NCBI RefSeq assembly: GCF_005222955.1
Contig: NZ_LWUA01000253.1
Span: forward strand, 1-35,297
Direction: 5' to 3'
From: Blastococcus sp. CCUG 61487
GTDB lineage: Bacteria; Actinomycetota; Actinomycetes; Mycobacteriales; Geodermatophilaceae
DNA length: 35,297 nt
Shown: positions 785-26,658 of the stretch, one piece after another
Layout of the letters: each line of letters opens with the position of its first letter
Numbering within the stretch: the first letter of the stretch is position 1
Notes under the pieces: model-generated
The model's database searches: none
Seen by the model: only the letters and a program-made list of their open reading frames with translations
Told to the model about the DNA's origin: nothing
Translations under genes and position numbers: made by a program

Positions 785-816
785 GCGCCCCCGAGAACAT
801 CGGCAGACCTACCCAT
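771..816 (-). promoter_or_regulatory. Stress-type box and -10 for DUF1931 gene
   Basis: The 18-bp box at 799-816 reads ATCGG-CAGACCTA-CCCAT on the plus strand, one mismatch from the window consensus ATCGG-N8-CCGAT. Going toward the DUF1931 gene, TGTTAT (771-776 on the minus strand) follows after exactly 22 bp, the spacing seen at the other sites. Confidence 0.55.
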
Positions 817-871
817 CCTCGGTCGTGCCGGCGACGCGGGCGACGGACGCAGATCCCCGGCGCGCTCCTCC

Positions 872-889
872 ATCGGCAGTGCTGCCCAT
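872..889. promoter_or_regulatory. Second stress-type box upstream of Gfo/Idh/MocA gene
   Basis: ATCGG-CAGTGCTG-CCCAT has one mismatch to the consensus. It lies 73 bp centre to centre from the box at 799-816, and 51 bp before the ATG at 941. No -10-like hexamer sits 22 bp away in either direction, so it may be an auxiliary site for the DUF1931 promoter or may serve the oxidoreductase gene from another promoter. Confidence 0.45.
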
Positions 890-940
890 TTCGCCCGGCA
901 GGCAGCGACGCCACGGCGGCCGGGCTCTACCGTGAGGAAC

Positions 941-1819
941 ATGGTTCCGGTCGGCCTGGTCGGCGCGGGTGCCCGGGCGGCCGAGGTGTACGCGCCGGCG
1001 CTCGAGACCTGCCCCGACGTTGACTTCGTCGCCGTGTGGGGGCGCTCCCCAGAACCCGCTCGACGGCTCGCCGAGCGGCACGGTGCGGTGCCGTGCCCGC
1101 GGTTCGATGACCTGCTGAAGCGATGCAGCGCGGTGGTCTTCGCGGTGCCACCGCCCGTCCAGGCGGAGTACGCCTCGACCGCCGCCCAGCACGGCTGCGC
1201 GCTGTTGCTGGAGAAACCCATCGCCGGCGACCTGACCGGCGCCGAGCAACTGACCTCGGCCGCCCTCCGCCAGAAGGTGCCGACGATGGTCGCGCTGCCC
1301 TGGCGGCACACGGACGACGTCCGCCGGTTCCTGTCAACCGACGTCCCCGACGTCGACCCGGCCGGCGGCATAAGGCGGGTGCTGTCGAGCACGCCCGCCG
1401 GCGAAGCACCGGCTCCACCGTGGCGAGGGGCCCGCGGGGTCTTGCGCACCTACGGGGCCGACCTGCTTGACCTCCTGGAGGCCGCCCTGGGGCCGGTCGT
1501 CGGCATGCACGCGCACGGGGACCCGCGCAGCTGGGTCGGTATGTCCCTCGATCACTCGGTGGGCCGGTTCTCCGAGGCGTCGCTCTACGGCGGGCGCACA
1601 CGAGGCCCGGACGTCGCCTTCGTCGAGGTCAGCGGCCCACGGGGGACGGCGGACATCGAGGCGCTGGCCGGCCTGGGCCCGAACGCGTACCAGGGGATGG
1701 TGGCCGAGTTCGCGGGCACCGTGGCCGACGGTCGATCGCACGGCCTCGGCATCGAGCATGGTCTCCACCTGCAGCGGCTGGTCGAGTCGGCGGAGACCGA
1801 CCTGGTCCTGCACGGCTGA
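941..1819 (+). CDS. Gfo/Idh/MocA family oxidoreductase
   Basis: The 292-residue protein begins with a Rossmann dinucleotide-binding motif (GLVGAGARAAEVYAP) and carries the family's EKP motif in LLLEKPIAGDL near residue 95. Such enzymes use NAD(P) to oxidise or reduce sugars, inositols or similar substrates; the substrate cannot be told here. It is somewhat shorter than the usual 330-380 residues, so the C-terminal substrate domain is compact. The ATG at 941 was chosen because the Rossmann strand starts right after it and GAGGA precedes it; the frame is open upstream but unlike the family. It stands alone and converges on the AraC gene downstream. Confidence 0.8.
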   Translation: MVPVGLVGAGARAAEVYAPALETCPDVDFVAVWGRSPEPARRLAERHGAVPCPRFDDLLKRCSAVVFAVPPPVQAEYASTAAQHGCALLLEKPIAGDLTGAEQLTSAALRQKVPTMVALPWRHTDDVRRFLSTDVPDVDPAGGIRRVLSSTPAGEAPAPPWRGARGVLRTYGADLLDLLEAALGPVVGMHAHGDPRSWVGMSLDHSVGRFSEASLYGGRTRGPDVAFVEVSGPRGTADIEALAGLGPNAYQGMVAEFAGTVADGRSHGLGIEHGLHLQRLVESAETDLVLHG

Positions 1820-1880
1820 CGGGTGGGACCTTTCACGCTTCCTCGTACTGCCGATCTCGGCTCCCGCCGCCACGACCCCG

Positions 1881-1895
1881 GGGCGGCTCACGCCC
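1881..1895. terminator. Weak hairpin between convergent genes
   Basis: GGGCG-GCTCA-CGCCC forms a five-pair stem between the oxidoreductase stop and the end of the convergent AraC gene. There is no T run, so this is only a possible terminator. Confidence 0.25.
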
Positions 1896-1917
1896 AGCAC
1901 GCACGACACGTGGTCGT

Positions 1918-2892
1918 TCAGCGACGCAGCGTCTCCTCCGGGAGGCGGCCGTACGCGTCCCGGTAGGCGGCCGCGAAGCCGCTGTGGTCGGCGAAGCCCC
2001 AGCGTGCCGCGATCATCGGCACTGCGTCGGGTCCTCCGGGGTCGGTGTCCACGAGGTCCCGGTGCGCCCGCGCCATCCGGACCCGTTCGGCATAGGCGGT
2101 CGGTGTCGTGTCCCGGTGGCGCAGGAAGCATGCCTGGAGCCCCCGAGCGCCGACCCCCGCGGCGTCCGCGATCTCGGTGAGCGTCATCGCGCGGTGCGCG
2201 TTGCCCTCGATGTGCTCGACGGCGCGCCGCACGACCGCCGGCGTGGCGTGGTCGGGCGGCAACCGTCGGTGGCTGACCAGGGTCGTGCTGGGGAACGTCG
2301 CCAGGACGGCTCGGGCCAGTCGCTCGGTCAGCGCAGTTGCGACCAGCGGGGCGCCCCCGACCTCCGGACGGTCCACGAGGACGTCGACGACGCGGCGGAC
2401 CGCTTCGCCCCAGCGCCGGCCCAGCTCCGGGGACATCGGCCGGAGCCCGGTGAAGCGCAGCGCGGTGCGTTCGAGTCCGGTCGTCTCGACGGCGACTCGC
2501 TCGACATCGGCGCTCTGCACACCGACGCAGTCGGCCACGGTGTCGGCCCACAGGACGCTCACCGCCTGGTGGGCAGGCAACAGCACGGGGGAACCCGGGA
2601 GCACGGCCTCCTCGTCGCGTCCCAGACTCACCTTCATGCCGCCGTCGTCCGGCTGGGCGACGACCATGACGCCCGAGAGCACGACGTTGTTGTCCGCACT
2701 CGACGAGTAGCAGAGCCGGGCGAGGCTCCCGTTGCCGACGCGGACGTTCCGGCTTCGGAAGCGGAAGTCACGGTGACTGTTGGACTCCTCCGGCCGGTAG
2801 CCGGAGTAGGCGGCCTCCAGCCACCGGTGGGCCGCGTCGGGGTCCGACGTGGCGACGCCGTCCATGGTGGGGGGCGGGACAGGTGATGACAT
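1918..2892 (-). CDS. AraC family transcriptional regulator (copy 1)
   Basis: This 324-residue protein ends in a typical AraC/XylS double helix-turn-helix domain (MTLTEIADAAGVGARGLQ, then IAARWGFADHSGFAAAYRD). The N-terminal two thirds resemble the sensory domain of the AraC-binding-2 type. It is nearly collinear with the regulator at 25565-26539, the same length and about four residues in five identical. The ATG at 2892 has GGGGAGA seven bases upstream, and the paralogue's start aligns with it. It is divergent from the SRPBCC gene. The promoter carries a stress-type box with TAGCGT, the same arrangement as in front of its paralogue, so the two probably answer to the same signal or to each other. 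The ligand is unknown. Confidence 0.9.
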   Translation of the reverse strand: MSSPVPPPTMDGVATSDPDAAHRWLEAAYSGYRPEESNSHRDFRFRSRNVRVGNGSLARLCYSSSADNNVVLSGVMVVAQPDDGGMKVSLGRDEEAVLPGSPVLLPAHQAVSVLWADTVADCVGVQSADVERVAVETTGLERTALRFTGLRPMSPELGRRWGEAVRRVVDVLVDRPEVGGAPLVATALTERLARAVLATFPSTTLVSHRRLPPDHATPAVVRRAVEHIEGNAHRAMTLTEIADAAGVGARGLQACFLRHRDTTPTAYAERVRMARAHRDLVDTDPGGPDAVPMIAARWGFADHSGFAAAYRDAYGRLPEETLRR

Positions 2893-2935
2893 GGTGTCTC
2901 CCCGGCTCGATCGCTCCGGTGGGCTGACGCATCCC

Positions 2936-2981
2936 ACGCTAGGACCGCCGGTGTCCGGACGGCATCCGTCGAATGACCGAT
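2936..2981 (-). promoter_or_regulatory. Stress-type box and -10 for AraC copy 1
   Basis: The box at 2964-2981 reads ATCCG-TCGAATGA-CCGAT (one mismatch). On the minus strand TAGCGT (2936-2941) follows after 22 bp, inside CCTAGCGTGG. The same block with identical spacing precedes AraC copy 2. Confidence 0.65.
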
Positions 2982-3047
2982 CAAGCCCAGCCCCTGGGCC
3001 GTACGCCACGGCATGCCGGTTCGGGGAGTCGTCGCTGGAGCGGCGCA

Positions 3048-3093
3048 ATCGGTCGTCCTGCCGATGGAGGTCAGCCAGCCGACGGACTTGGCT
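3048..3093 (+). promoter_or_regulatory. Stress-type box and -10 for SRPBCC-adh
   Basis: An exact box, ATCGG-TCGTCCTG-CCGAT, occupies 3048-3065. TTGGCT (3088-3093) follows after 22 bp and is itself followed by GGA, as at several sister sites. The hexamer is a poor -10 by usual standards; the case rests on its position. Confidence 0.55.
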
Positions 3094-3129
3094 GGACACG
3101 CTGCCGCCACCCTTCCCTCAGGAGCTCGC

Positions 3130-3686
3130 ATGGAGCTGACCTCGACGACGACCGTCAACAAGCCCCCGCAGGAGGTGTTCGACTTCTGGCACCGGTTGGA
3201 GAACCTGGACGCGTTCATCGCCCACCTGGACGAGGTGCGGGTGACCGGCCCGCGCTCCAGCCGCTGGACGGCGAGCGCACCGTTCGACACCGTCATCGAG
3301 CGGGACGTCGTGACGACGGCCGACGTCGCCGCGGAGCGCATCGCCTGGGTCTCCGTCGAGGGCGCCGACGTCCACACCTCGGGCAAGGTGACCCTCGTGC
3401 CCGCACCGGGCGGGCGGGGCACCGAGGTGCGGGTCACGCTGCGCTATGACATGCCCGCGGGCCCGTTGGGCAGGGCGCTCGCCACGTATTTCGGCGACGA
3501 CCCGTCCCAGCTGCTCGACGACGACCTGCGGCGCCTCAAGCAGGTGATGGAGACCGGCGAGGTGGTGCGTTCCGAGGGCGCCCCCTGGGCAAGCGGGCCC
3601 GCAAGGAGTTCCCGCAGCGTCCGGCGCGGCCGCTGAGTGAGGAGGAGCTGCAGGAGCTCCGGGGTCGCAAGGAGGTGCTGGCGTGA
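3130..3686 (+). pseudogene. SRPBCC family protein, frameshifted near its end
   Basis: The product is a START/Bet v1-like SRPBCC (polyketide cyclase/dehydrase-like) protein that probably binds a hydrophobic ligand. It starts at ATG 3130 with AGGAG seven bases upstream, reading MELTSTTTVNKPPQEVFDFW. The fold is complete to about residue 150. In the C run at 3580-3585 the frame slips: the open frame stops at 3636, whereas the next frame continues as [20 protein letters not shown] to a TGA at 3684-3686. That tail fits the family, and its stop overlaps the GTG start of the adh gene (GTGA), showing the original end. Restoring the frame needs one base more. This may be a real lesion or a sequence error. 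It is the first gene of an operon with the adh pseudogene. Confidence 0.8.
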
Positions 3687-6612: not shown

Positions 6613-6628
6613 CGGGGTCTCCTGTCGC

Positions 6629-7773: not shown

Positions 7774-7927
7774 CCGACCGGCTCCTGACGCGTGGGCCCC
7801 GAGGCCCCTAGGGAGCACCACGGGGCGCCCAGCGGCCGGCTCTGCTCACCGGCCCCCGTGACTCTGCACCGGCTGCCCGACCCGGGCCACCGCAGAACCG
7901 GGGCTTCCCGCGGTGGGCCGCCGAAAG

Positions 7928-7945
7928 AACGGCAGAACTACCCGG
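7928..7945 (-). promoter_or_regulatory. Degenerate stress-type box upstream of adh
   Basis: AACGG-CAGAACTA-CCCGG resembles the box at 799-816 in 14 of 18 positions but the arms are poor. No -10-like hexamer follows at 22 bp. It may be a decayed site for the adh operon, whose start is 154 bp away. Confidence 0.25.
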
Positions 7946-7995
7946 GGGCCGGCGACCCTCCCTCCCACGCGAGGAAGCTCGTCCCAGCAGAGTGC

Positions 7996-8551
7996 TCACC
8001 CGCCGGTCCCGCTGGCGAACTCCTGGACGATGCGCTTGCAGAATGCCGGCAGGTCGTCCGGTGAGCGGCTGGTCGTGACGTTGCCGTCGGTCACGACCCC
8101 CTCGTCGACCACCTCGGCGCCCGGCGTTGCGCAGGTCGGTGCGCACACTGGGCCAGGACGTCAGCCGCCGGCCGCGGACGCGGTCCGCCTCCACCAGGTT
8201 CCAGGGTCCGTGGCAGATCGAGGCCACCGGTTTGCCGGAGTCCACGAAGTCGCGGACGAAGCTCACCGCGGTCTGGTTCATGCGCAGCTTGTCGGGGTTG
8301 ACCGTGCCCCCGGGCAAGACCAGCGCGTCGAAGTCGTCCGGTGACACGTCGCCGCCCAGCCGGTCGACGGCGAAGGTGCCGGCGTCCTCCAGGTCGTGGT
8401 TGCGCGCCGCGATCTCGCCGTCGTGGATCGAGAGCAGCGTGGTCCCGGCCCCGGCCTGGTCGAGCACCTGGCGGGGCTGCTCGAGCTCGACGCGCTCCAC
8501 GCCGTCGGCTGCGAGGATCGCCACGCGCCGCCCGTTCAGTTCGCCTGCCAT
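7996..8551 (-). pseudogene. DJ-1/PfpI family protein, frameshifted
   Basis: The gene encodes a PfpI-type member of the DJ-1 superfamily, close to general stress proteins of that group. It starts at ATG 8551 with GGGAG upstream (MAGELNGRRVAILAADGVER), and has the nucleophile elbow SICHGPW and the conserved Glu region (DGVERVELEQP). The frame breaks after VRTDLRNAG at about 8120, where CCGGG replaces an expected CCGG, one base too many. In the shifted frame the family C-terminus follows ([20 protein letters not shown] to a TGA at 7996). Read as is, the protein runs on into unrelated basic sequence. The active-site residues lie before the break. A stress-type promoter is at 8622-8667. Confidence 0.85.
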
Positions 8552-8621: not shown

Positions 8622-8667
8622 ATTCGACGTCGGGCAGGGAGGCCGCAGTATCGGCAGACATGCCGAT
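8622..8667 (-). promoter_or_regulatory. Stress-type box and -10 for PfpI gene
   Basis: The exact box ATCGG-CAGACATG-CCGAT lies at 8650-8667. On the minus strand TCGAAT (8622-8627) follows after 22 bp and is followed by GGAG, the same pattern as at 8908. Confidence 0.6.
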
Positions 8668-8867: not shown

Positions 8868-8913
8868 ATCGGCACGTCTACCGATATCGCATCAGGGCCC
8901 GGGGGCCTGGAAT
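8868..8913 (+). promoter_or_regulatory. Stress-type box and -10 for 121-residue gene
   Basis: The exact box ATCGG-CACGTCTA-CCGAT lies at 8868-8885; TGGAAT (8908-8913) follows after 22 bp within CCTGGAATGGAG. A transcript starting near 8920 would have a leader of about 38 bases. Confidence 0.6.
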
Positions 8914-8957: not shown

Positions 8958-9323
8958 ATGACCAGGACGGCCGATCTCTCGCTCAGGAACTCATATGCCG
9001 CGCAGAAGCAGATGGCGGAACTGGCGTTCTCCCTCCTGCGGATGCAGGCGGACACGCCGGCCGGGGTGTGGGTCGACGAGCACTTCCGAACGGAGTACCG
9101 GGAGATCTGGGAACGTGCTAGCTCCCTCGCCGGCGAGAGCGCCGCGGAGGCGCTGTTGCTGACCGTGCTCACCCATGCCCACGTCCTACTCGCCTACCTG
9201 GTCGCCGCGACCGGGATCAGCGAGGTCGAGTGGCTCGACCGCCTGCGTGCTGACTACGTCGACCGCATCCCCGCCAGCGGCACGGGCGTGTGGGGCCCGC
9301 GCACCCTCCGGCTCGGCGCCTGA
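8958..9323 (+). CDS. Unknown 121-residue helical protein
   Basis: I do not recognise this protein. It starts at ATG 8958 with AGGAG eight bases upstream (MTRTADLSLRNSYAAQKQ). Most of it is predicted helical by eye, with an alanine- and leucine-rich stretch around residues 60-85 (AAEALLLTVLTHAHVLLAYL) that may be a buried or membrane-associated helix. It has no cysteines. A stress-type promoter directly upstream ties it to the hsp20-dnaK operon and the PfpI gene. The upstream reading frame is open but lies across the promoter. Confidence 0.6.
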   Translation: MTRTADLSLRNSYAAQKQMAELAFSLLRMQADTPAGVWVDEHFRTEYREIWERASSLAGESAAEALLLTVLTHAHVLLAYLVAATGISEVEWLDRLRADYVDRIPASGTGVWGPRTLRLGA

Positions 9324-10509: not shown

Positions 10510-11529
10510 ATGCGCTCGGAACAGGCAAGTGAGCTGCTGCTGGCCGAGACCGCCGCCTCGATCGGCAGCACGTCCGAGCGCGCGCACGCGATGCTCGAGG
10601 TCCTCCGTCGGATCATCCCGTTCGACGGCGCCTTCCTGGCGTTCGCCGACCCGCTGGGCCACGGCTACCACTCCCTGGTGAGCGTCGACCTGGACGTGCG
10701 GACCGCGGAGTTCCTCGCCGGCCCCCAAGTCGCGCGGGACATCGAGGCCACCGGGACCGATCGGGCACGTCCGCCGTTGGGCCCGTCGGACCTGCCCTAC
10801 CCGGCCGAGGAACTGCCGACCTGGGCCGAGTGCCTGATCCCCTCCGGTATCCACCAGGGGCTGGGCGTTGCCCTGTTCGCACCCGGGAGGCGGCACGTCG
10901 GCCATCTCGCAGTGCTATCCGGCAGCCGGCAGCCTCCGTCTCCGGCCATCCGGCGCCGGCTCGGGCGGCTGGCGCCGGTGTTCGCGCGCGGAATCGACCC
11001 GATGCGTTCCCTGATCGCTGCAGCGCGGCTGGTCCGGGGGGCCACCGCAGCTGTGGTGCTGCGGGCGGACGGCGGCTGCCAGGCGCTGCCGGGCATGCCG
11101 GTGGATGCGCGGCTCGTGGACCGCTCCCCCGTCCTGGCCGCCGCACGCGAGCGGATTGCCGACGGGCACCTCTACTCCTCGTTCCTCTGGCCGGTGGGTG
11201 GCTCGCACGCCCCCGGCGGGCACGTGCGTCTCACCGTCCTGGCGGCACCCGAGGACGTGCCGCCGGGCCTGACCGCCGTGGCCCTGCTGTCACCGGCGCC
11301 CGACCTGCACGGGCTCACCCCCCGGGAACTCGAGGTGCTGGGCTTCCTCGTCGAGGGGTGCTCCAACCACGAGATCGCTCGTGCGCTCGTCGTGGCGGCG
11401 CGGACCGTGGCCGCCCACCTGGAGCACATCCTCGTCAAGCTCGGGGCGCCGACCAGAACACTCGCCGCGGTCCGCGCCGAACGGGACGGTCTCTACGTTC
11501 CGGCCGCTCGCGCCGGCGGGCATGCATGA
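10510..11529 (+). CDS. LuxR family transcriptional regulator
   Basis: The 339-residue protein ends in a LuxR/FixJ-type helix-turn-helix (LTPRELEVLGFLVEGCSNHE, then ARTVAAHLEHILVKLGAPTR, about residues 275-325). The N-terminal 200 residues look like a GAF-type sensory region, with no receiver domain, so it is probably not a two-component response regulator. The ATG at 10510 has GGGGCGG upstream. It stands alone between the IS256 remnant and the DUF2267 gene. Since it lies among genes sharing the stress-type box and is intact, it is one candidate for the factor that reads the box; there is no direct evidence. Confidence 0.85.
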   Translation: MRSEQASELLLAETAASIGSTSERAHAMLEVLRRIIPFDGAFLAFADPLGHGYHSLVSVDLDVRTAEFLAGPQVARDIEATGTDRARPPLGPSDLPYPAEELPTWAECLIPSGIHQGLGVALFAPGRRHVGHLAVLSGSRQPPSPAIRRRLGRLAPVFARGIDPMRSLIAAARLVRGATAAVVLRADGGCQALPGMPVDARLVDRSPVLAAARERIADGHLYSSFLWPVGGSHAPGGHVRLTVLAAPEDVPPGLTAVALLSPAPDLHGLTPRELEVLGFLVEGCSNHEIARALVVAARTVAAHLEHILVKLGAPTRTLAAVRAERDGLYVPAARAGGHA

Positions 11530-11630: not shown

Positions 11631-11675
11631 ATCGGCCGATCGACCGATGCCATGCGCGCTGAACGGTCATAGCGT
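11631..11675 (+). promoter_or_regulatory. Stress-type box and -10 for DUF2267 gene
   Basis: The exact box ATCGG-CCGATCGA-CCGAT lies at 11631-11648; TAGCGT (11670-11675) follows after 21 bp. The same 18-mer, inverted, precedes AraC copy 2. An ATG at 11647 lies inside the box, upstream of the predicted transcript start, and so cannot be the start codon if this promoter is used. Confidence 0.65.
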
Positions 11676-11703
11676 CGGACTCGCGGAGGCGGAGGCGTTC
11701 GGC

Positions 11704-11880
11704 GTGGACGAGTTCGTGGGCCGCGTCGCTGTACGTGGGGACGTCGGGCCCGCCGAGGCCCGGAACGGGGCCGCGGCCGTCCTGACGACGGTGCGGCAGG
11801 CAGTCACCCCTGGCGAGTTCGACGACGTCCTCTCCCAGCTGCCGCAGGAGTACCGGGAGCTGGTCGGGCCGATGGCCTGA
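11704..11880 (+). CDS. Short DUF2267 family protein
   Basis: The 58-residue product covers one DUF2267-type repeat (DEFVGRVAVRGDVGPAEARN, then LTTVRQAVTPGEFDDVLSQL). Most DUF2267 proteins have about 130 residues with two such repeats, so this one is half-length. Their function is unknown; they often lie in stress clusters. I chose GTG 11704 because GGAGG lies eight bases upstream and because the stress-type promoter predicts transcription from about 11683. The alternative ATG at 11647 would add 19 residues unlike the family. Confidence 0.65.
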   Translation: MDEFVGRVAVRGDVGPAEARNGAAAVLTTVRQAVTPGEFDDVLSQLPQEYRELVGPMA

Positions 11881-15470: not shown

Positions 15471-15739
15471 ACCGGTGCCTCGTCCACGAAGCACCACCGC
15501 CAGTCCTCGCCCGGCTGGAACGACCGGATGATCGGATGGCCGACCAGGCCGGCGTGCTTGCGGGCGTGCTTCCCCGGGGACTGGTCGCAGCAGCCGACGT
15601 GCCCACAGGTAAGACACAGCCGCAGATGGACCCACGGAGAGCCGGTCCGCAGGCACTCTTCGCATCCCTGAGGGGTGCGCGGCACGACGTCCTCCCGCAC
15701 GAAGGCCAGGTGCGGATCGAGACCTACCGGGATGGTCAT
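15131..15739 (-). CDS. UBP-type zinc finger protein, 3' end uncertain
   Basis: The first 90 residues form a UBP-type (ubiquitin-hydrolase) zinc finger with the expected ligands: Cys26, Cys29, Cys42, Cys45, Cys50/51, His58, His62 and His68 (QGCEECLRTGSPW, LCLTCGHVGCC, GKHARKHAGLVGHP). In eukaryotes this fold binds the ubiquitin C-terminus; its ligand in bacteria is unknown. After CFVDEAPV (about 15470) relatives usually stop, but here the frame stays open to 15131, overlapping the flavoprotein gene by 340 bases with arginine-rich shadow sequence. A one-base change near 15470, or a former fusion of the two genes, would explain this. It starts at ATG 15739, overlapping the thioredoxin stop (ATGA). 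Confidence 0.7.
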   Translation of the reverse strand: MTIPVGLDPHLAFVREDVVPRTPQGCEECLRTGSPWVHLRLCLTCGHVGCCDQSPGKHARKHAGLVGHPIIRSFQPGEDWRWCFVDEAPVWRRRRRPTRRATASSSCWPTCRLVRHRTCRGPSPASRRRASGSWRRGGSGGPRRPGTCSSPRANRRTPSTWCSPAGSPSSRHSGRPTSGWSGCTDPAASSASSASSRGNRPS

Positions 15740-16194
15740 CGAGCGGACCCTCCGGACAGGGCGCCGTCCAGCCAGCTGCGCAACGCCGGCTCGGGGGCCG
15801 CGCCGGGCTGACGGGCCAGCACCTCGCCGTCCCGCAGCACCATCAGGGTCGGGACGGCGCGCACCTCGAACCGCTGGGAGAGCCGGGGTGCCCGGTCGAC
15901 GTCGACCTTGACCAGCTTGAGCTCGCCGGCACGCTCGGTGGCCAGCCGTTCGAGGGCGGGGCTCACCATCCGGCACGGGCCGCACCAGGTCGCCCACAGA
16001 TCCACGAGCACCGGGACCGGAGCCCGCTCGGCGACCTCGGCGAAGTCGTCGTCGCCCGCGTCGGCGATCCATGGCAGGCGCTCGTGGCAGTTGCCGCACT
16101 TCGGGACGCTGTCCGCCACCGTCGGCACCCGGTTCTTCTTCGAGCAGTGCGGGCAGGTGACGACGCTCGTCCGTGCGGTCGCGGGGGCGCTCAC
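15736..16194 (-). CDS. trxC: Thioredoxin with N-terminal zinc ribbon (Trx2-like)
   Basis: The 152-residue protein has a zinc ribbon (Cys14, Cys17, Cys33, Cys36: CPHC and CGNC) followed by a thioredoxin fold with the active site WCGPC at 70-74 and the cis-proline segment [10 protein letters not shown]. This matches thioredoxin 2 (TrxC), a cytoplasmic disulfide reductase tuned for oxidative stress. It starts with GTG 16194, overlapping the clpB stop (GTGA), and its stop overlaps the UBP zinc finger start. The close coupling to clpB suggests repair of oxidised, aggregated proteins. Its electron donor could be the flavoprotein two genes on, though that lacks a CxxC. Confidence 0.9.
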
Positions 16195-18805
16195 GCCTGC
16201 GCTCCGATCGGCTCGTGGGTGACGACCAGCCGGTCGCCGTCCACGTCGACCCGCAGGGTCGAGCCCTCGATCGCCCCGTCACGCAGCAGCGCCCGGGCGA
16301 CCTGGGTCTCCACCTCCTTCGCGATGAACCGCCGCAGCGGCCGCGCACCGTAGACCGGGTCGTAGCCCTCCCGGGCGATGAATCGCTTGGCCTCCTCGGT
16401 GATCTCCACCGTGATGTCGCGCTCGGCGAGGCGGACGCGGAGGTCGGCGAGCATCAGCTCGACGATGTTCTCGATCTCGCGCGGGTTGAGCGGCGTGAAC
16501 AGGACGGTGTCGTCGACCCGGTTGAGGAACTCGGGCCGGAAATGCGCCCGCAGCTCGGCCATCACGAGGTCGCGTGCCTCTGGTTTGAGCTGGCCGTCGT
16601 CGGTGACCCCGTCGAGCAGGTACTGCGAGCCGATGTTCGACGTCATGATGATGACGGTGTTGCGGAAGTCGACGGTGCGCCCCTGCGCGTCGGTGAGCCG
16701 GCCGTCGTCGAGGACCTGCAGCAGCGTGTTGAAGACGTCCGGGTGCGCCTTCTCGATCTCGTCGAAGAGGACGACGGCGTACGGACGGCGACGCACCGCC
16801 TCGGTGAGCTGACCGCCCTCCTCGTAGCCGACGTAGCCGGGCGGGGCACCGACCAGCCGCGACACGGTGTGCCGCTCCTGGTACTCGCTCATGTCGATCC
16901 GGACGATGTTGTCCTCGGAGTCGAACAGCGCCTCGGCCAGCGCCTTGGCCAGCTCGGTCTTCCCGACCCCGGTCGGGCCGAGGAAGATGAACGAGCCGCT
17001 CGGCCGCCGCGGGTCCTTCACCCCGGAGCGGGCCCGGATGATCGCGTCCGCGACCGCCTGCACCGCCTCGTCCTGGCCGACCACGCGCCGGTGGAGCACC
17101 TCGTCCAGGCGGAGCAGCTTCTCCCGCTCCCCCTCGGTGAGCCGCGAGACGGGGATGCCGGTCCACACCGAGACGATCTCGGCGATCTCCTCGGCGGTGA
17201 CCACCTCGCGCAGCAGGCTGTGCTCCCCCTGCTTCTCCGCGAGCCGTCGCTCCTCCACCTCCAGCCTGCGCTCCAGGTCGGCCAGCCGGCTGAAGCGGAG
17301 CTCGGCGGCGCGGTTGAGGTCGTAGGCCCGCTCCGCCTCCTGGATCTCGTGGCGGACCTGTTCCAGCTCCGCGCGCAGGTCCTGGACCCGCTTGATCGCC
17401 TGCCGTTCGGCATTCCACTGGGCGCGCATGGCGTCGGCCTCGCCGCGCAGATCGGCCAGCTCACGGCGGAGCTGGTCGAGCCGCGCCCGGGAGGCTGCGT
17501 CCTCCTCCTGGGCGAGTGCGGCCTCCTCGATCTCCAGCCGCATCACCTTGCGGGTGATCTCGTCCAGCTCGGCCGGCATCGAGTCGATCTCGGTGCGCAG
17601 CCGGGCGCACGCCTCGTCGACGAGGTCGATGGCCTTGTCGGGCAGGAACCGGTCGGTGAGGTAGCGGTGGCTCAGCGTCGCCGCCGCGATCAGCGAGCCG
17701 TCGAGGATCCGGACGCCGTGGAACACCTCGAACCGCTCGCGCAGCCCGCGCAGGATCGAGATCGTGTCCTCCACCGTGGGCTCGTCGACGAAGACGGGCT
17801 GGAACCTGCGCTCGAGCGCGGCGTCCTTCTCGATGTACTTGCGGTACTCGGTGAGCGTGGTCGCGCCGATCATGTGCAGCTCACCACGCGCCAGCATCGG
17901 CTTGAGCATGTTGCCGGCATCCATCGACCCTTCGGATGCGCCGGCGCCGACGACGTTGTGCAGTTCGTCGACGAACAGCAGGATGCGGCCCTCGGCGGCC
18001 TTGACCTCCGACAACACCGCCTGCAGCCGTTCCTCGAACTCGCCGCGGTATTTCGCCCCGGCCACGAGCAGCCCCATGTCCAGGGCGAAGATGGTGCGTT
18101 CGCGCAGGCCCTCGGGCACGTCCCCGTTGAGGATCCGCTGGGCCAGCCCCTCCACGATGGCGGTCTTGCCGACTCCGGGCTCACCGAGGAGCACGGGGTT
18201 GTTCTTCGACTTCCGGGAGAGGATCTGGATCACGCGCCGGATCTCGGCGTCGCGGCCGATCACCGGGTCGAGCCGGCCGGAGCGAGCCGATTCCACGAGA
18301 TCGATCCCGTACTTGGTGAGCGCCTCGTAGGAGCCCTCGGGGGTCGCGGACGTGACCCGCTGGTTGCCGCGCACCTGCGTCAGCGCGGAGAGGAAGGCCT
18401 CACGGGTGACGCCGTGCCGCGCCAGCACCCGACCGGCACCCGCGGCAGAGCCCGTCTCCGCCAGCGCGACGAGCAGGTGCTCGACCGAGACGTACTCGTC
18501 CTTCATGCGCTTTGCTTCGCGGTCGGCGGCCTCGAGCACCTGGGCGACCCGCTGCGTCAGCGAGACCTGCCCGGGTTGAGGGGCCGTGCCGGTCGTCCGT
18601 GGCTTGCGGGAGAGCTCCGCGGCCATGTCCCTGCGCAGGGCCGCAGGATCGGAGCCCATCGCCGAGATCAGCCTCGGGACGAGGCCGTCGGGCTGGTCGA
18701 GGAGCGCCGTGAGCAGGTGCTCGACGTCGACCTCGGTGTGACCGTGCTCGATCGCCAGGGACTGCGCGGCGGCGAGCGCCTCCTGGGACTTCTGGGTCAG
18801 GCGGT

Positions 18806-18815
<10 letters not shown>
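16191..18815 (-). CDS. clpB: ClpB disaggregase
   Basis: The 874-residue protein has all ClpB parts: N-domain (residues 1-150), first AAA+ module with Walker A GEPGVGKT (211-218) and Walker B LLFVDELH, a middle coiled coil rich in Glu, Arg and Leu, and a second AAA+ module with GPTGVGKT (about 615) and [10 protein letters not shown]. It lacks the ClpP-binding IGF loop, as expected for ClpB. It works with DnaK to dissolve aggregates. ATG 18815 begins [18 protein letters not shown], and the gene overlaps cbpM by 10 bases and trxC by 4. The gene is intact over 2.6 kb. Confidence 0.97.
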
Positions 18816-20208
<1,393 letters not shown>

Positions 20209-20802
20209 TCAGCTCCCCTGACGCTGCGCGACGGTGACGGCCGCCGGCCGGAGCTGACGTCCAGGAGCGCCGTAACCAGGCCGGACGACCGCGGCCACCG
20301 AACCGGGCGGGGTGCCGGCGCCGTCGGCATCCACCACCCCGACCACCTCGTGCCGCGCCGGGTCGAACGGCACTCCGCGCTCGTCCTCCCGTTCGTAGCC
20401 CAGCCCCGCGAAGACGGCGAGGGCCTGGTCACGGAGAGCGCGGATGCCCTCGACGATCGACCTCGGGTCCGCCGCGGCGTGTTCGAGTGCGCGATCGATG
20501 GCGTCGAGCACCGGCAGGAACGCCGACGCGACCAGCTCTCGCTCGTTCTCCCGCTCGCGCGCCACCTCCCGTGCGTATCGCTTGCGCAGGTTGTCCAGGT
20601 CGGCGGCGACGCGCCGCCAGCGGTCCTCGGCGACATCCAGCGCCTGCTGGAGTTGCACTTCCGCCGCGTCCTCCGCCGGCGCGAGCGCCCCCTCCCGCGG
20701 AACTTCGCCCTCCCGGTGAGCCGCTGCCTCGGCGGCTTCCGGGTCGGCACCCGGAGAACCCAGCGGCCGGACGGACGGCGTCTTCGATCCGGGCTCAGCC
20801 AT
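20209..20802 (-). CDS. grpE: GrpE nucleotide exchange factor
   Basis: The 197-residue protein fits GrpE: an acidic, disordered N-terminus, a long helix (VAADLDNLRKRYAREVARER) and a compact C-terminal beta domain with GVPFDPARHEVVGVV. It releases ADP from DnaK. ATG 20802 follows the dnaK stop by 10 bases; the ribosome binding site is weak, so translation probably depends on coupling. An open stretch upstream of this ATG overlaps dnaK and is unlike GrpE. Confidence 0.92.
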   Translation of the reverse strand: MAEPGSKTPSVRPLGSPGADPEAAEAAAHREGEVPREGALAPAEDAAEVQLQQALDVAEDRWRRVAADLDNLRKRYAREVARERENERELVASAFLPVLDAIDRALEHAAADPRSIVEGIRALRDQALAVFAGLGYEREDERGVPFDPARHEVVGVVDADGAGTPPGSVAAVVRPGYGAPGRQLRPAAVTVAQRQGS

Positions 20803-20812
20803 CGGTGGAGAC

Positions 20813-22696
20813 TCAGGTCCGGTCGAACTCGGCGTCGATGACGTCGTCGTCCGCGGCCGCCGCCGCACCGCCGGTTCCGTCACCCACATCGGCCGCATAG
20901 TTGGCCGAGGCCGCCTGCAGCCCTGCCAGCACCTGCTGCAGCTCCCCGGTCAGTTCGCGGACGCGATCCATCGGCGCCTGGTCTGCCACCGCCTGCCTGG
21001 CGTCGGTCACCAACATCTCGGCACGGGCGCGCTCGTGCGGAGGTGCGGAGTCGCCGAGCTCCTCCAGCCGGCGCTCCACCTGGTAAGCGACGCTGTCCAG
21101 CGCGTTGCGCGCGTCCACCTCCTGGCGCAGCTGCTCGTCGGCGGTCCGGTTGCGCTCCGCCTCCTGCAGCATGCGCTCGACCTCGGACTGGTCGAGGTTG
21201 GTGCTCTCGGAGATGGTGATGCCCTGCTCGGCGCCGGTGTCCTTGTCCCTGGCGGTGACGTTGAGGATGCCGTTGGCGTCGATGTCGAAGGTGACCTCGA
21301 TCTGCGGCTCCCCGCGCGGCGCCGGCCGGATCCCGGTGAGCTGGAACCGGCCGAGCACCCGGTTGTCGGCCGCCCGCTCGCGCTCCCCCTGCAGCACGAC
21401 GACGTCGACGGCGGGCTGGTTGTCCACCGCCGTGGAGAACGTCTCGCTCCGCCGGACCGGGATGGTCGTGTTCCGTTCGATGATCTTGGTCATCACGCCG
21501 CCCATGGTCTCCAGCCCCAACGACAGGGGTGTGACGTCGAGCAGCAGGACGTCGGACACGTCCCCCTTGAGGACCCCCGCCTGGATCGCGGCGCCGACCG
21601 CGACGACCTCGTCGGGGTTGACGGTCATGTTCGGTTCCTTGCCACCGGTGAGCCGGCGCACGAGTGCCTGGACCGCCGGGATGCGGGTGGACCCGCCGAC
21701 CAGGATGACCTCGTCGATGTCGTCGGCGGCGACCTTGGCGTCCGACATGGCCTGGCGGACCGGCCCCATGGTCCGCTCGACGAGATCGGCCGTGAGCTGG
21801 TCGAACTTCGAGCGCATCAGCGTCATCGTGAGGTGCTTGGGCCCGTTCGCATCCGCGGTGACGAAGGGCAGGTTGACCTGGGTCTGGGTGACCGAGCTGA
21901 GCTCGACCTTCGCCTTCTCGGCGGCCTCGTAGAGCCGCTGGAGCGCCTGCGGGTCCTTCCGCAGGTCGATGCCGTTCTCCTTCTGGAACTCCTCGGCCAG
22001 GTGGTCGACGATCCGCCGGTCGAAGTCGTCCCCGCCCAGGTGGGTGTCGCCGGCCGTGGCCCGCACCTCGACCACGCCGTCCCCCACGTCGAGGACGCTG
22101 ACGTCGAACGTTCCGCCGCCGAGGTCGAACACCAGCACCGTCTCGTGCTGCCGCTTGTCCATCCCGTAGGCCAGCGCCGCGGCCGTCGGCTCGTTGATGA
22201 TCCGCAGGACCTCGAGGCCGGCGATCTTCCCCGCGTCACGGGTGGCGGTTCGCTGCGCGTCGTTGAAGTAGGCCGGAACGGTGATGACCGCCTCGGTGAC
22301 GCGTTCGCCCAGGTGCCGTCCGGCGTCGTCGGCGAGCTTGCGCAAGATCAGCGCAGAGATCTCCTCCGGCGCATGCAGCTTGTCCCGCACCTTGATCCGG
22401 GCGAGCCCGTTCGCATCGGGCACCACGTCGTAGGTGACCTGCCCGGCCTCCTCCTCGACCTCCTCGAACCTGCGGCCCACGAACCGCTTGACCGAGTAGA
22501 TCGTGCCCTTGGCGTTCAGGATCGCCTGCCGACGGGCCAACTGGCCGACCAGGCGCTCACCGTTCTCCGTGAACGCCACCACCGACGGCGTCGTGCGGGC
22601 GCCCTCCGCGTTGGGCACGACCGAGGCCTCGCCCCCCTCCCATGCGGCGATGACCGAGTTCGTCGTCCCGAGATCGATACCAACCGCGCGCGCCAT
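20813..22696 (-). CDS. dnaK: DnaK chaperone (Hsp70)
   Basis: The 627-residue Hsp70 has the phosphate loop [10 protein letters not shown] (6-15), [11 protein letters not shown] (168-178), [10 protein letters not shown] (191-200), [10 protein letters not shown] and an intact substrate-binding domain and lid ending in [15 protein letters not shown] 22696 has GAGG eight bases upstream and lies one base after the stop of the gsp17M-like gene. It works with the grpE, cbpA and clpB products of the same operon. Because there is no CIRCE or HAIR element near and because its first gene is hsp20, this may be a stress-specific second dnaK copy; that needs the rest of the genome. Confidence 0.97.
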
Positions 22697-22697
22697 C

Positions 22698-23243
22698 TCA
22701 GATCCTCTCTGCGAGCAGCCGGGCAGCCTGGTCGGCCACCTCGTCGTCGACGACAAGTTCGAACCGCAGGGGGCGCATGTAGGTCACCGACGCGAAGTCC
22801 CGGCGACCGCCCTGGAGCGCGTAGACGATCATCGCGATGACCGCTCCGATCACCGCCCCGATGAGCAGTCCGTAGAGGGCGAGCAGCAGCGCGCTCACCA
22901 GCGGATCGGCCCAGTCGAAGAGTCCGAAGATCCAGCCGAGCAGCGCGCCCGGGACGGCACCGTTCACCGCACCCCGCCAGGCGGCGGTGGGATAGTCCAT
23001 CTTCCCGGTCACCTGTTCGACGGTCTGCATGTCCTGGCCGACGATGGCCACCCGCTCGACCGGGAAGTCGAGGTCGGCCAGCCGGTCGACCGCCCGCTCC
23101 GCGTCGGCGTAGCTGGTGTACGAGGCGACGGTCCGGCGGGCCGAGCGGGTCGAGGCGCCGGGGCTCCCTGGAGACCAGGGGTCGACCGCGGTGCCCCCTC
23201 GCGGGCCGGTCGGGTCCGCGTCGTGTCGGGCTGACGAGGTCAT
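22698..23243 (-). CDS. General stress protein 17M-like membrane protein
   Basis: The 181-residue protein matches the general stress protein 17M (YflT-like) fold: an N-terminal alpha/beta domain ([32 protein letters not shown]), then two hydrophobic stretches ([15 protein letters not shown], then [18 protein letters not shown]) and a short beta tail. The molecular function of the family is not known. ATG 23243 (or GTG 23246) has AGGGAG upstream. It lies 12 bases after hsp20 and one base before dnaK. Confidence 0.8.
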
Positions 23244-23255
23244 CACTCACTCCCT

Positions 23256-23750
23256 CTATCTGGCGGGGGTCTGCTCGGTGCCCGCGGCTACGGCCTCCTG
23301 GGCGGGCGGGGAGGCGGCGGCGACGTTCGGGGCGTCGGTGGAACGATCGGCGGAACCGAGGGCGACCCGACGCGGCTTGCTCGCCTCGCTGACCGGGATC
23401 GTGAGGGTCAGGACACCGTCCCGCACATCAGCGGTCAGCCGGTCGGCGTTCAGGTTCTCCCCGAGGAGCAGTTGCCGGGCGAACTCGCCGTGCGGCCGCT
23501 CGTCGATGAGCACCTCGTCGCCCTCCTGACGGGCGGGGACCCGCCGGACCCGGATGCTGACGACGTTGCGCTCGACCGTCAGGTCGATGTCGTCAGGGCG
23601 CACGCCGGGCACGTCGAGATGGACGATGAACTCGTCGCCGCGTCGCAGCGCCTCCATCGGCATGCTGCGTAGCGCACGCGCCCCAGCTGACAGGCTCTGT
23701 TCGGCGAGCCGGTCGAGTTCACGGAGCGGGTCGAATCGCATCAGAGTCAC
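23256..23750 (-). CDS. Small heat shock protein (Hsp20)
   Basis: The 164-residue protein has an alpha-crystallin domain from about residue 45 (FIVHLDVPGVRPDDIDLTVE, then RLTADVRDGVLTLTIPVSEA). It holds unfolding proteins until DnaK and ClpB, encoded downstream, refold them. I chose GTG 23750 because AGGAGG lies eight bases upstream; the internal ATG 23741 lacks one. It is the first gene of the operon and has a stress-type box with CAGCGT in front. The C-terminal 30 residues are Ala/Pro-rich and lack a clear I-x-I motif. Confidence 0.93.
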   Translation of the reverse strand: MTLMRFDPLRELDRLAEQSLSAGARALRSMPMEALRRGDEFIVHLDVPGVRPDDIDLTVERNVVSIRVRRVPARQEGDEVLIDERPHGEFARQLLLGENLNADRLTADVRDGVLTLTIPVSEASKPRRVALGSADRSTDAPNVAAASPPAQEAVAAGTEQTPAR

Positions 23751-23834: not shown

Positions 23835-23881
23835 ACGCTGGCCGCCCCCCCTCGACGAGGGCAATCGGTCGTTCTGCCGAT
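23835..23881 (-). promoter_or_regulatory. Stress-type box and -10 for hsp20-dnaK-clpB operon
   Basis: The exact box ATCGG-TCGTTCTG-CCGAT lies at 23864-23881. On the minus strand CAGCGT (23835-23840) follows after 23 bp within CCAGCGTGG, almost the same as CCTAGCGTGG in front of both AraC genes. A second possible -10, TAACCT, is at 23812-23817. Confidence 0.6.
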
Positions 23882-23933
23882 GGCGGCGGCGGGCAGAGGG
23901 CCGGAGCGGTCCCGGAGGCGTGCTCCTGCCGGG

Positions 23934-23951
23934 ATGGGCAGTGCTACCGAT
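23934..23951. promoter_or_regulatory. Second stress-type box in hsp20/metallopeptidase spacer
   Basis: ATGGG-CAGTGCTA-CCGAT has one mismatch to the consensus. Its centre is 70 bp from that of the box at 23864-23881. It may be an auxiliary site for hsp20 or serve the metallopeptidase gene on the other side, although no good hexamer lies 22 bp downstream. Confidence 0.45.
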
Positions 23952-24128
23952 GGACGGATCGACGTGGGCACGGTGCCTGAGCGCTGGTGGGCCGTCGATG
24001 GCCGCACCGTCGCCGTGCGGCCCTGCTGGTCGGTCCCACGGGGCTGCACCGGCCGAGGAGGCGCGGGTGGAGCATGCGATGACCGTCCAGCAGGGACCGC
24101 CGCTCCGGCCGGTCGGGACTGCCTCCGG

Positions 24129-25458
24129 ATGAGACGGCCACTGCGTCGCGCGCTGGCCGTGACCGGGGTGGGCGTCGTATTCCTGGCCGGGTGCTCGGGC
24201 ACGAGACCCGACCCGTCCTCCGGCGATCCCCGGCAGCTCGTCGACGTACCCGCCGAGCGGCTGCCCATCATCGGCGCGACCGACTCCCCGACCGATCGGC
24301 TGGTGCGCAACGCGATCGCCGACCGCGAGACCTACTGGGCCGAGACGTTTCCGCGTTCCTACGGAAAGCAGTTCCGACCCCTCGCCGGCGGCTACTTCTC
24401 CGTCGACAGCTCCGCCCTCGACGCGAGCAGGTACCCCCCAAGCGGCATCGGCTGCCCGGACCATCCGATGGACCCGGCGGCCGTGGCGGGGAACGCCCTC
24501 TACAACCCCCGCTGCGACGCCATCGCCTATGACCGGGCGCTGTTGAAGGATCTCGCCGGCACCTACGGGCAGTCGCTGCCCGCCGGAGCATCCAGGACGA
24601 GACGCAGGCCGACTGCTTCGCCGGTGCAAGGGCGGCCTGGGTCAACGACGGCCAGGCGCGGCACATGGCGATCGACGAGCGGGACCTCGACGGCGTCCTG
24701 GGCGGCTACCTCCTGCTCCGTGACCCCGTCGGCAGCGACCCGGACAACAGCCAGGCCCACGGCTCCTGCTTCGACCGGGTCTCGGCGTTCTCCGAGGGCC
24801 ACGACGGCGGCGTCACCTTCTGCCGGGATGACTTCGGTCCCGATCGGCTGTCCACCGCGGAGACCTTCGACCAGGACGAGCTGGCCGACCGCGGCAACGC
24901 CGCGTACGTCGCGACCCTGCGGATCGTCGACGACACGCTGCCTCCGTTCTGGCGCGACGTGCTCTTGCGGGGATTCGGCCGGGAGTTCGACGAGCCGGCG
25001 ATCCGCCCGTTCGACCGCGTGCCGCCGCCGTGCGGGACAGAGGAACTCGATCTCACCTTCTGCGCGGCCGACTCGACGGTGTACTACGACGAGACCGAGC
25101 TGGTGAGGCCCGCGTACCAGCAGCTGGGGACTTCGCGGTCGCCACCGCCATCTCCGTCCCCTACGCGCTCGCCGCCCGCTCGGAGCTCGGCCTGTCGATC
25201 GATGACGAGGCCGCCACCCGCTCGGCGGTCTGCCTCACCGGCTGGTACGCGGCCCAGATCTTCAGCGGTGCCTTCACCGGCGCTGCCGGGGTCAGGATCA
25301 GCCCCGGCCACATCGATGAAGCCGTGACTTCCCTGCTGACCTACGGGCTCTCCGAGCGCGTGTTCCCGAACGTCGACACGTCCGGATTCGAACTGCTCCG
25401 CGTCTTCCGGAACGGGTTTTTACGCGGTGGTGGCCCCTGCGACGTCGGTCTCCCATGA
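24129..25458 (+). pseudogene. Neutral zinc metallopeptidase lipoprotein, active site deleted
   Basis: The gene encodes a secreted lipoprotein (signal peptide RALAVTGVGVVFLAGC with lipobox LAGC) of the neutral zinc metallopeptidase family. Family sequence runs to DLAGTYGQSLPA, then at about 24583 jumps in another frame to SIQDETQADCFAGARAAWVN. The segment that holds the HExxH zinc motif in relatives (HEFGH) is missing. A second break at about 25125, in a G run, moves the frame again; family sequence resumes as DFAVATAISVPYALAARSEL and ends at 25458. CCCGCC flanks the first junction, so short-repeat deletion is likely. No active protease is possible. The start ATG 24129 has a weak ribosome binding site. 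Confidence 0.85.
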
Positions 25459-25494
25459 CCACTGCCGTGTGACGCTGTCACCGACGGCTCTCTG

Positions 25495-25516
25495 GTCGTG
25501 AAGCCATCCTCACGAC
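25495..25516. terminator. Hairpin between convergent genes
   Basis: GTCGTGA-AGCCATCC-TCACGAC is a perfect seven-pair stem between the metallopeptidase pseudogene and AraC copy 2, which converge. It probably ends transcription from one or both sides. There is no T run. Confidence 0.45.
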
Positions 25517-25564
25517 AAGCCGGCCGGCGTATTCCCACGGCGTCCACCGACGTCCGGCTGCCGT

Positions 25565-26539
25565 TCAGCCACGCAGCGTCGCCTCGGGGAGGCGGCCGTA
25601 GGCATCCCGGTAGGCGGCGGCGAAGTGGTTCTGGTCGGCGAAGCCCCAACGCGCCGCGATCGTCGGCACGCCCTCGGGTGCCCCGGGGTCGGAGTCCAGG
25701 AGGTCTCGGTGCGCCCGCGCCATCCGCACCCGTTCGGCATAGGCGGTCGGTGTCGTGTCCAGGTGGCGCAGGAAGCACGCCTGGAGCCCCCGGGCGCTGA
25801 TACCGGCAGAGTCGGCGATCTCGGTGAGCGTCATCCCGCGGTGCGCGTTGGCCTCGATGTGCTCGATGGCCCGCCGCGCGACGGCCGGCGTGGCGTGGTC
25901 GGGTGGCAACCGGCGGTGGCTGGCCAGGGTCGTGCTGGGGAAGGTCTCGAGGACGGCTCGGGCCAGTCGCTGGGTCATCGCGGTGGCGACCAGCGGGGCG
26001 GCCCCGCCCGGCGGACCCCCCACGAGGACGTCGACGACGCGGCGGACCGTGTCGCTCCAGCGCCGGCCCAGCTCCGGGGACATCGGCCGGAACCCGGTGA
26101 AGCGCAGCCCGGCGTCTTCGAGTCCGGTCGTCTCGACGGCGACCCGCTCGACGTCGGCGCTCGGCAGGGCGACGAAGTCGGCCACGGTGTCGGCCCACAG
26201 GACGCTCACCGGCTGGTGTGCCGGCAACAGCACGGGAGATTCCGGGAGCACGGCGTCCTCGTGGCGTCCCAGGCTCACCTTCATCGCGCCGTCGTCCGGC
26301 TGGACGACGACCAGGACGTCCGAGAGCAGGACGTTGTTGTCCGCGCTCAGCGAGTAGCGGAGTCGGGCGAGGCTGCCGCTGCCGATGCGGACGCGGCGGC
26401 TGCGGAAGCTGAAGCCGCGGTGGCTGTTCGACTCCTCCGGCCGGTAGCCGGGGAAGGAGGACTCCAGCCACCGGTGAGCCGCCCCAGGGTCGGTCGTGGC
26501 GAGTGCGTCGATGGTCCACGACGGGACAGGTGATGACAC
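25565..26539 (-). CDS. AraC family transcriptional regulator (copy 2)
   Basis: This 324-residue paralogue of the regulator at 1918-2892 has the same layout: an AraC-binding-2-like N-terminal region and a C-terminal AraC double helix-turn-helix (MTLTEIADSAGISARGLQ, then IAARWGFADQNHFAAAYRD). The start is GTG 26539, in line with the ATG of copy 1, with GGGGAGG upstream. Differences are spread over the sensory domain and spare the DNA-reading helices, so both probably bind the same sites but may sense different signals. It diverges from the second 79-residue gene across a 154-bp spacer with one box. Confidence 0.9.
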   Translation of the reverse strand: MSSPVPSWTIDALATTDPGAAHRWLESSFPGYRPEESNSHRGFSFRSRRVRIGSGSLARLRYSLSADNNVLLSDVLVVVQPDDGAMKVSLGRHEDAVLPESPVLLPAHQPVSVLWADTVADFVALPSADVERVAVETTGLEDAGLRFTGFRPMSPELGRRWSDTVRRVVDVLVGGPPGGAAPLVATAMTQRLARAVLETFPSTTLASHRRLPPDHATPAVARRAIEHIEANAHRGMTLTEIADSAGISARGLQACFLRHLDTTPTAYAERVRMARAHRDLLDSDPGAPEGVPTIAARWGFADQNHFAAAYRDAYGRLPEATLRG

Positions 26540-26612
26540 GGTGCCTCCCCGGCTCTCTCCATCCGGTGGGCTGTCGGCTCCCGTACCTGACGGATGCAGC
26601 CCGCGTCGCTCC

Positions 26613-26658
26613 ACGCTAGGAGCGCGGCGACAGCGGGTGTATCGGTCGATCGGCCGAT
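26613..26658 (-). promoter_or_regulatory. Stress-type box and -10 for AraC copy 2 (and copy-2 small gene)
   Basis: The exact box ATCGG-TCGATCGG-CCGAT lies at 26641-26658. On the minus strand TAGCGT (26613-26618) follows after 22 bp. In the other direction AACGAT (26681-26686) also follows after 22 bp; a start seven bases on would coincide with the ATG at 26694, suggesting a leaderless transcript for the small gene. Confidence 0.65.

Follow-up and report, generated by a model that had tools for sequence, protein, structure and literature searches.

Genes and boxes of the locus

The window, that is, the whole analysed stretch of 35,297 nucleotides from the soil bacterium Blastococcus sp. CCUG 61487 (contig NZ_LWUA01000253.1), contains a recurrent palindromic box, ATCGG-N8-CCGAT, which stands together with a -10-like hexamer at eight promoters of a gene cluster. 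Sequence comparison indicates that the box is most likely read by a LuxR-type one-component protein encoded in the same cluster (10510..11529, forward strand). Genes were predicted with a codon-usage gene finder trained on the genes of the window and boxes were located by pattern search; the palindromic boxes are given without strand. All eight hexamers named in an earlier note on this DNA were found; their distance to the box is 21 bases at 11631, 23 bases at 23864 and 22 bases at the other six promoters.

At the left end, a box with one mismatch (799..816) and the hexamer TGTTAT (771..776, reverse strand) would drive the gene of a DUF1931 protein leftward (179..622, reverse strand; PF09123). 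A second box with one mismatch (872..889) lies 73 bp from the first and lacks a hexamer of its own. The gene of AraC-type regulator 1 (1918..2865, reverse strand; HTH_18) would be driven leftward by a weaker box with an ATCCG half (2964..2981; two mismatches to the 18-bp pattern given below) and the hexamer TAGCGT (2936..2941, reverse strand). An exact box (3048..3065) with TTGGCT (3088..3093, forward strand) would drive the SRPBCC/polyketide-cyclase-like gene rightward (3130..3636, forward strand) and is also present before its orthologue in two loci of relatives (L050, L051).

Two further boxes match the 10-letter core exactly and the 18-bp pattern with one mismatch. The box at 8650..8667 with TCGAAT (8622..8627, reverse strand) would drive the DJ-1/PfpI gene (7808..8551, reverse strand) and perhaps the dehydrogenase genes behind it, where a Zn-dehydrogenase in two frames (7291-7764 and 6629-7294) and a gene at 6007-6612 follow. 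The two dehydrogenase reading frames (6629-7764) overlap by 4 bp, and the corresponding parts in locus L044 share one frame. The box at 8868..8885 with TGGAAT (8908..8913, forward strand) would drive a small gene without Pfam match rightward (8958..9323, forward strand; start as in the earlier note, 9012 according to the gene finder). An exact box (11631..11648) with TAGCGT (11670..11675, forward strand) precedes the gene of a DUF2267-like protein of 58 residues (11703..11880, forward strand). Because of the hexamer at 11670, the gene finder's start at 11647, which the box overlaps by 2 bases, was replaced by the inferred start at 11703; the other nine of the ten sites listed in the note are clear of predicted genes. 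The label DUF2267 agrees with a resemblance, judged by eye, to the end of the DUF2267 proteins of relatives, but there was no Pfam match at E 0.01.

On the right, an exact box (23864..23881) with CAGCGT (23835..23840, reverse strand) would drive the Hsp20 gene and probably also the chaperone genes behind it. These form a close-packed run (13752..23750, reverse strand) encoding Hsp20, YflT, DnaK, GrpE, DnaJ, a MerR-type protein, ClpB, thioredoxin and a cyclic-nucleotide-binding/pyridine nucleotide reductase protein, and probably make up one operon. A second box with one mismatch (23934..23951), 70 bp away, again has no hexamer of its own. The last exact box (26641..26658) with TAGCGT (26613..26618, reverse strand) would drive the gene of AraC-type regulator 2 leftward (25565..26539, reverse strand), a paralogue of regulator 1. 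Further to the right, a PAS histidine kinase (26959-28490) is encoded in two overlapping frames, the PAS part at 27492-28490 and the ATPase part at 26959-27675, which suggests a frameshift or an assembly error.

The gene content makes a stress role of the regulon likely, since the Hsp20/chaperone run is accompanied by DUF1931, DJ-1/PfpI and dehydrogenase genes and, in relatives, by cytochrome bd and DUF2267 genes. The same Hsp20/chaperone arrangement with a box is found in Geodermatophilus africanus (L049). The DnaK of the run is the second of the genome; the other copy, on contig C112, is 59% identical. Geodermatophilaceae include desiccation- and radiation-tolerant strains, according to the part of the literature covered.

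Box sequence and chance expectation

The pattern search placed exact matches to ATCGG-N8-CCGAT at 3048, 8650, 8868, 11631, 23864 and 26641 and one-mismatch matches at 799, 872, 2964 and 23934, all as the earlier note had it. Its expectation of 0.03 exact matches was reproduced from the base composition; under a first-order Markov model, 0.08 exact matches are expected in the window, with a maximum of 2 across 300 simulations. In total, nine one-mismatch sites to the 10-letter pattern were found versus the four that had been listed. Four of the additional sites (5011, 10561, 18243, 31327) lie within predicted genes and the fifth (27920) within the reading frame of the PAS domain. The note's description of all sites as intergenic is correct for the exact matches and its four listed one-mismatch sites, but not for these five. 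The consensus could be extended to 18 bp, ATCGGYMG-NN-CKRCCGAT. None of the five unlisted sites comes within one mismatch of this pattern, as nine of the ten listed sites do; the remaining one, 2964, deviates at two positions.

Genome-wide (4.11 Mb, 296 contigs), exact matches to the 10-letter pattern number ten; besides the six in the window there are four, all within predicted genes and all without hexamer. The box is not equally common inside genes, which the earlier note had named as a refuting outcome. The 18-bp pattern matches exactly at four places, all in the window, and with at most one mismatch at ten, nine of them in the window and the tenth (C279) intragenic. That chance or the G+C-rich composition of the genome produced the box has next to no probability: loose matches are indeed frequent, with 52 in the window at ≤ 2 mismatches versus 26 expected and 491 in the genome at ≤ 3 mismatches versus 358 for the reversed pattern, and for this reason carry little weight, but the exact sites, the permuted and reversed controls, the spacing and the conservation exclude chance. 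A chance origin was rejected on the exact-site expectation and these controls.

Promoter geometry

Spacing was analysed for 144 boxes from other loci than the window (288 flanks). The pattern [CT][AGT]NNNTGG is found at offset 22 in 37 flanks and at offset 23 in 21, all other offsets having a mean of 1.3 and a maximum of 4; the near-fixed distance from box to -10-like hexamer therefore recurs around boxes from other genomes. In an open motif search, 22-23 was the position of the best motif for 22 of 57 boxes in the training set, compared with 4 of 57 when the flanks were shuffled, and for 7 of 33 test boxes of other families; promoters of the GTGCAAT type were set at 17-18. A strict TANNNT scan gave a hexamer at 21-22 for 4 of 66 boxes, this pattern being too narrow.

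The centre of the palindrome is about 31 bases ahead of the first base of the hexamer. If the hexamers are taken as -10 elements beginning at -12, the box would be centred near -43. G-rich bases come after the hexamer, and G-rich bases behind a -10 element favour the housekeeping sigma factor. Among 77 flanks selected by hexamer from 125 boxes, the third base of the half distal to the hexamer deviates in 14 and its partner in the proximal half in 2, an asymmetry which fits with one half facing RNA polymerase.

A repressor operator, at which the LuxR-type or another protein blocks RNA polymerase, could likewise lie over the -35 zone. However, weak hexamers and a box in place of the -35 element suit activation, and LuxR/NarL-type proteins bound at the -35 position usually activate; repression is considered improbable. 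The idea of an activator binding beside RNA polymerase, put forward before, is supported by the near-fixed spacing in other genomes and by the conservation before orthologous genes.

Conservation of the box in relatives

The exact 18-bp box is present in 25 of 112 Geodermatophilaceae genomes and the reversed pattern in none. With one mismatch allowed, 102 of the 112 genomes have a box, which is then no longer discriminating alone. The box recurs ahead of orthologous genes in Pseudonocardia, Cellulomonas, Kineococcus, Microbacteriaceae and others, so that conservation across genera and families, the absence of which the earlier note had named as a refutation, was found.

Twenty neighbourhoods of 18-20 kb around boxes in relatives were compared, and LuxR-type homologues lie within 14 of them. 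Of the other six, four (L045, L049, L052, L062) are from genomes which carry a homologue elsewhere and two (L046 from G020, L048 from G026) from genomes without one. A set of 99 boxes with ≤ 1 mismatch was compiled from the window, the 20 neighbourhoods and those loci among L097-L157 that lie outside Geodermatophilaceae; where a box separates divergent genes, it was counted for both. Seven of these boxes are within predicted genes and 93 face a gene start at most 400 bp away. The families most often faced are F1 (38) and the LuxR gene (19), followed by F10, a glycosyltransferase (12), and F2, another zinc dehydrogenase (11).

F1 is a formaldehyde-dehydrogenase-like zinc enzyme; it does not reach the curated cut-off set for the model of formaldehyde dehydrogenase, hence formaldehyde is not assignable as its substrate. 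For F1, 30 loci of 59 matches were compared. Of the 22 island-type copies (≥ 80% identity), 20 have an upstream box at ≤ 2 mismatches no more than 320 bp away, 18 of them at ≤ 1 mismatch, and all 22 genomes have a LuxR homologue; the two copies without box belong to G032 and to G023, whose LuxR matches are fragments. Paralogous F1 copies (61% identical) have an upstream box in 0 of 8 cases. In Microbacteriaceae the unit is reduced to F2-F3-F1, box, LuxR and DUF1345. Seven of 13 loci there (Plantibacter, Frondihabitans, Curtobacterium salicis, Rathayibacter and three others) have a box between the divergent F1 and LuxR genes; a two-mismatch box takes this place in L132 and L148, L156 has a box elsewhere, and no box with ≤ 1 mismatch was found in L151, L152 and L154.

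At L217, L223 and other loci of a sample of 394 genomes of the class, boxes with CCG or TCG inner halves occur in actinobacteria lacking the LuxR gene, a few of them with a hexamer at 22. This hints at a related regulator reading a similar site.

Co-occurrence of box and LuxR-type gene

Homologues of the LuxR-type protein were accepted at E 1e-15, with at most 19 candidates scored per genome. Among the 112 family genomes, 21 have both box and LuxR gene, 4 the box only, 9 the LuxR gene only and 78 neither (Fisher's exact test, p = 4e-12); homologues are thus present in 21 of 25 genomes with box versus 9 of 87 others. All 15 genomes with at least two exact boxes have a homologue. Concerning the four genomes with box only, in which just helix-turn-helix matches to the LuxR protein were found, the box is intragenic in G026 and G090 and intergenic without hexamer in G054. 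The box of G020, ahead of a DUF2267 gene, is convincing.

In the class sample, box and LuxR gene were searched for independently. An exact box was found in 39 genomes (reversed control: 3), many of which have boxes of the CCG..CGG type, a LuxR gene in 14 and both in 6 (p = 0.001; p = 0.005 minus the genome of the window). All six double-positive genomes have at least one box on the contig of the LuxR gene within about 7 kb, in five at 33-103 bp from the gene; G204 has an additional box on a different contig. In four of the other eight genomes with LuxR gene there is a box at ≤ 2 mismatches within 1.5 kb, and 30 permuted patterns gave 0 or 1. A search with a LuxR profile yielded 66 loci holding 83 boxes with ≤ 1 mismatch, versus 0-2 for each of 20 permuted palindromes; 45 of the 66 loci have such a box and 29 an exact one. 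As these loci were selected by the LuxR protein, they are not independent evidence.

Another regulator of the island might read the box, either a LysR-type protein (F6), whose gene often lies beside the LuxR gene, or the AraC-type proteins. F6 occurs in 19 of the 112 family genomes, 15 of these among the 25 genomes with box. However, it has no match in the genome of the window at E 1e-40, on which ground it was rejected, and it is missing from the seven Microbacteriaceae loci with the box between F1 and LuxR; the AraC family of the window was found in just 2 of 82 clustered loci. A LysR- or AraC-type reader is accordingly given very little probability.

The distribution of the LuxR-type gene is patchy, as only 3 of 23 genomes of Blastococcus, the genus of the window, have it. 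Identity to the window protein reaches 78-79% in Pseudonocardia, Cellulomonas and Kineococcus versus 60-61% for some Blastococcus metagenome genomes. Going by identity, the simplest reading would be horizontal transfer of the gene, in a family for which paralogues exist.

The candidate regulator

The LuxR-type protein (10510-11529) has 339 residues and a C-terminal GerE domain (PF00196, E 7.7e-15), the DNA-binding part of which is well conserved across 17 orthologues. Besides GerE, no Pfam match at E 0.001 and no NCBIfam model above cut-off were found. The AlphaFold model (best of five models) has a mean predicted local distance difference test value (pLDDT) of 86 and predicts a mixed helix-strand N-terminal region, a strand-rich second part and a four-helix GerE domain. 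The best whole-chain Foldseek matches are SdiA, RhlR, CviR and phytochromes, with template modelling (TM) scores of about 0.3-0.4 by query length; such loose whole-length matches do not indicate a ligand or the fold of the N-terminal part.

A fragment of a Mutator-family transposase (9826-10278) is located directly ahead of the LuxR-type gene. Contig C254 of G000 carries another, incomplete copy of the gene (45142-45852), which covers residues 1-237 of 339 at 98% identity. The islands L044, L047, L051, L053, L057 and L060 encode a second LuxR paralogue, 35-39% identical and often close to a box; in these islands the proteins may form heterodimers or divide the regulon between them.

Proposed mechanism

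From the box, its spacing, its conservation and its co-occurrence and linkage with the LuxR-type gene, all of which are directly observed, we infer that the LuxR-type protein binds the box and activates transcription. In full, the box would be the operator of this cluster-borne one-component protein, acting as a class II activator at the eight promoters of the window, a reading to which we assign a probability of about 0.78. A dimer would bind the 18-bp palindrome ATCGGYMG-NN-CKRCCGAT via the C-terminal GerE helix-turn-helix. Bound near -43, it would stand in for a -35 element and help the housekeeping RNA polymerase onto weak -10 elements with G-rich bases behind them. A signal sensed by the N-terminal part would switch on at least eight promoters in the window, with DUF1931, the two AraC-type regulators, SRPBCC, PfpI plus the dehydrogenase genes, two small genes and the Hsp20-DnaK-GrpE-DnaJ-ClpB-thioredoxin run as targets.

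Several observations weigh against this reading. G020 has a full box before its DUF2267 gene (L046:9911), with the hexamer at 23, and no LuxR homologue beyond the helix-turn-helix; this box may be a relic or be read by another regulator. Conversely, nine LuxR-positive family genomes have no exact box (some of the matches being fragments or weak), G032 has the LuxR gene and no box before F1, and 21 of the 66 loci selected by the LuxR profile have no box at ≤ 1 mismatch, five of these having a two-mismatch box close before F1. Since boxes of the CCG..CGG type occur in genomes without LuxR gene, other proteins may read similar sites. In the window, no box is ahead of the LuxR gene, so autoregulation is unsupported here; G157 and G204 have their nearby box past the end of the gene. 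As to the promoters, the hexamers are poor -10 elements, the best motif of the open search fell at 22-23 for only 22 of the 57 training boxes, with 4 after shuffling, and for 7 of the 33 test boxes, and many of the compared promoters are orthologous, so that their counts are not independent trials.

More tentatively, and with less than even odds, the cluster may represent a horizontally spread stress regulon across many actinobacterial families under a one-component LuxR-type sensor, i.e., a kinase-free counterpart of DosR. A single small-molecule signal, perhaps an electrophile such as a reactive aldehyde, would then control a second set of chaperones together with enzymes that act on carbonyls (formaldehyde-dehydrogenase-like, DJ-1/PfpI) and, in one relative, cytochrome bd. 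An anonymous repeat becomes a testable regulator-operator pair across several actinobacterial families; this pair (protein, 18-bp site and near-fixed -10 spacing) is assayable in vitro and gives a handle on when the accessory DnaK/ClpB system is used.

Comparison with known systems

Actinobacterial dnaK operons are controlled by HspR/HAIR. The locus shares with them the dnaK-grpE-dnaJ-clpB genes and a MerR-type gene in the run; it differs in that DnaK is the second copy and that no HAIR-like site was found near the run, the sole match in the window at ≤ 3 mismatches to the HAIR pattern used being at 395-415. Control by HspR/HAIR was rejected for want of a HAIR operator before the chaperone run, within the limits of that pattern and ≤ 3 mismatches.

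In the titles and abstract openings covered, with the subscription literature mostly outside, there was no description of the box, the regulon, the LuxR family or the gene set. The earlier note had called the box undescribed, which agrees with this in part; its core, however, resembles the published OsdR site, as far as the portion of PMC5069765 covered here goes.

The likeness raises the alternative that a two-component response regulator of the DevR/OsdR type, encoded elsewhere, binds the box and that the cluster is a DosR-like hypoxia/dormancy regulon. The candidate itself has a GerE/NarL helix-turn-helix, and its profile matches the DevR domain at E 6e-10. According to the covered portions of the sources, DevR palindromes overlap the -35 elements (PMC3029386), OsdR of Streptomyces coelicolor has sites clustered around the regulator and predicted targets including zinc alcohol dehydrogenase genes (PMC5069765), and DevR/DosR of Mycobacterium has a small heat-shock target, there hspX. 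In addition, a cytochrome bd gene faces a box in L052. The inner core of ATCGGYMG-NN-CKRCCGAT is similar to that of the OsdR consensus AGGGCCGATCGGCCCT in the covered part of PMC5069765, but the outer positions are unlike (ATCGG vs AGGGC). Furthermore, the candidate has no receiver domain (only GerE by Pfam, E 0.001), no response-regulator gene is a constant neighbour, the sole clustered family of this kind (F46) being found in 3 of 82 loci, the box follows the patchy LuxR gene, and the regulon includes the second chaperone run. A DevR/OsdR-type regulator encoded elsewhere is regarded as the main alternative, though an unlikely one, and the LuxR-type protein of the cluster is preferred.

The boxes of lux and tra systems are dyads of 18-20 bp near -42. 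Like quorum-sensing LuxR/TraR proteins, the candidate is a one-component protein with a sensor part and a GerE domain, and its whole-chain Foldseek matches include SdiA, RhlR and CviR. It differs from them by the lack of a Pfam autoinducer-binding domain (E 0.001) and in the TM scores of about 0.3-0.4 by query length; membership in the quorum-sensing LuxR proteins responding to acyl-homoserine lactones was rejected on the lack of this domain. The C-terminal GerE helix-turn-helix, which defines the LuxR/FixJ (GerE) superfamily, is present. By analogy, box and regulator would work like a DevR/OsdR or lux-box promoter and would belong to the LuxR/FixJ-type activators.

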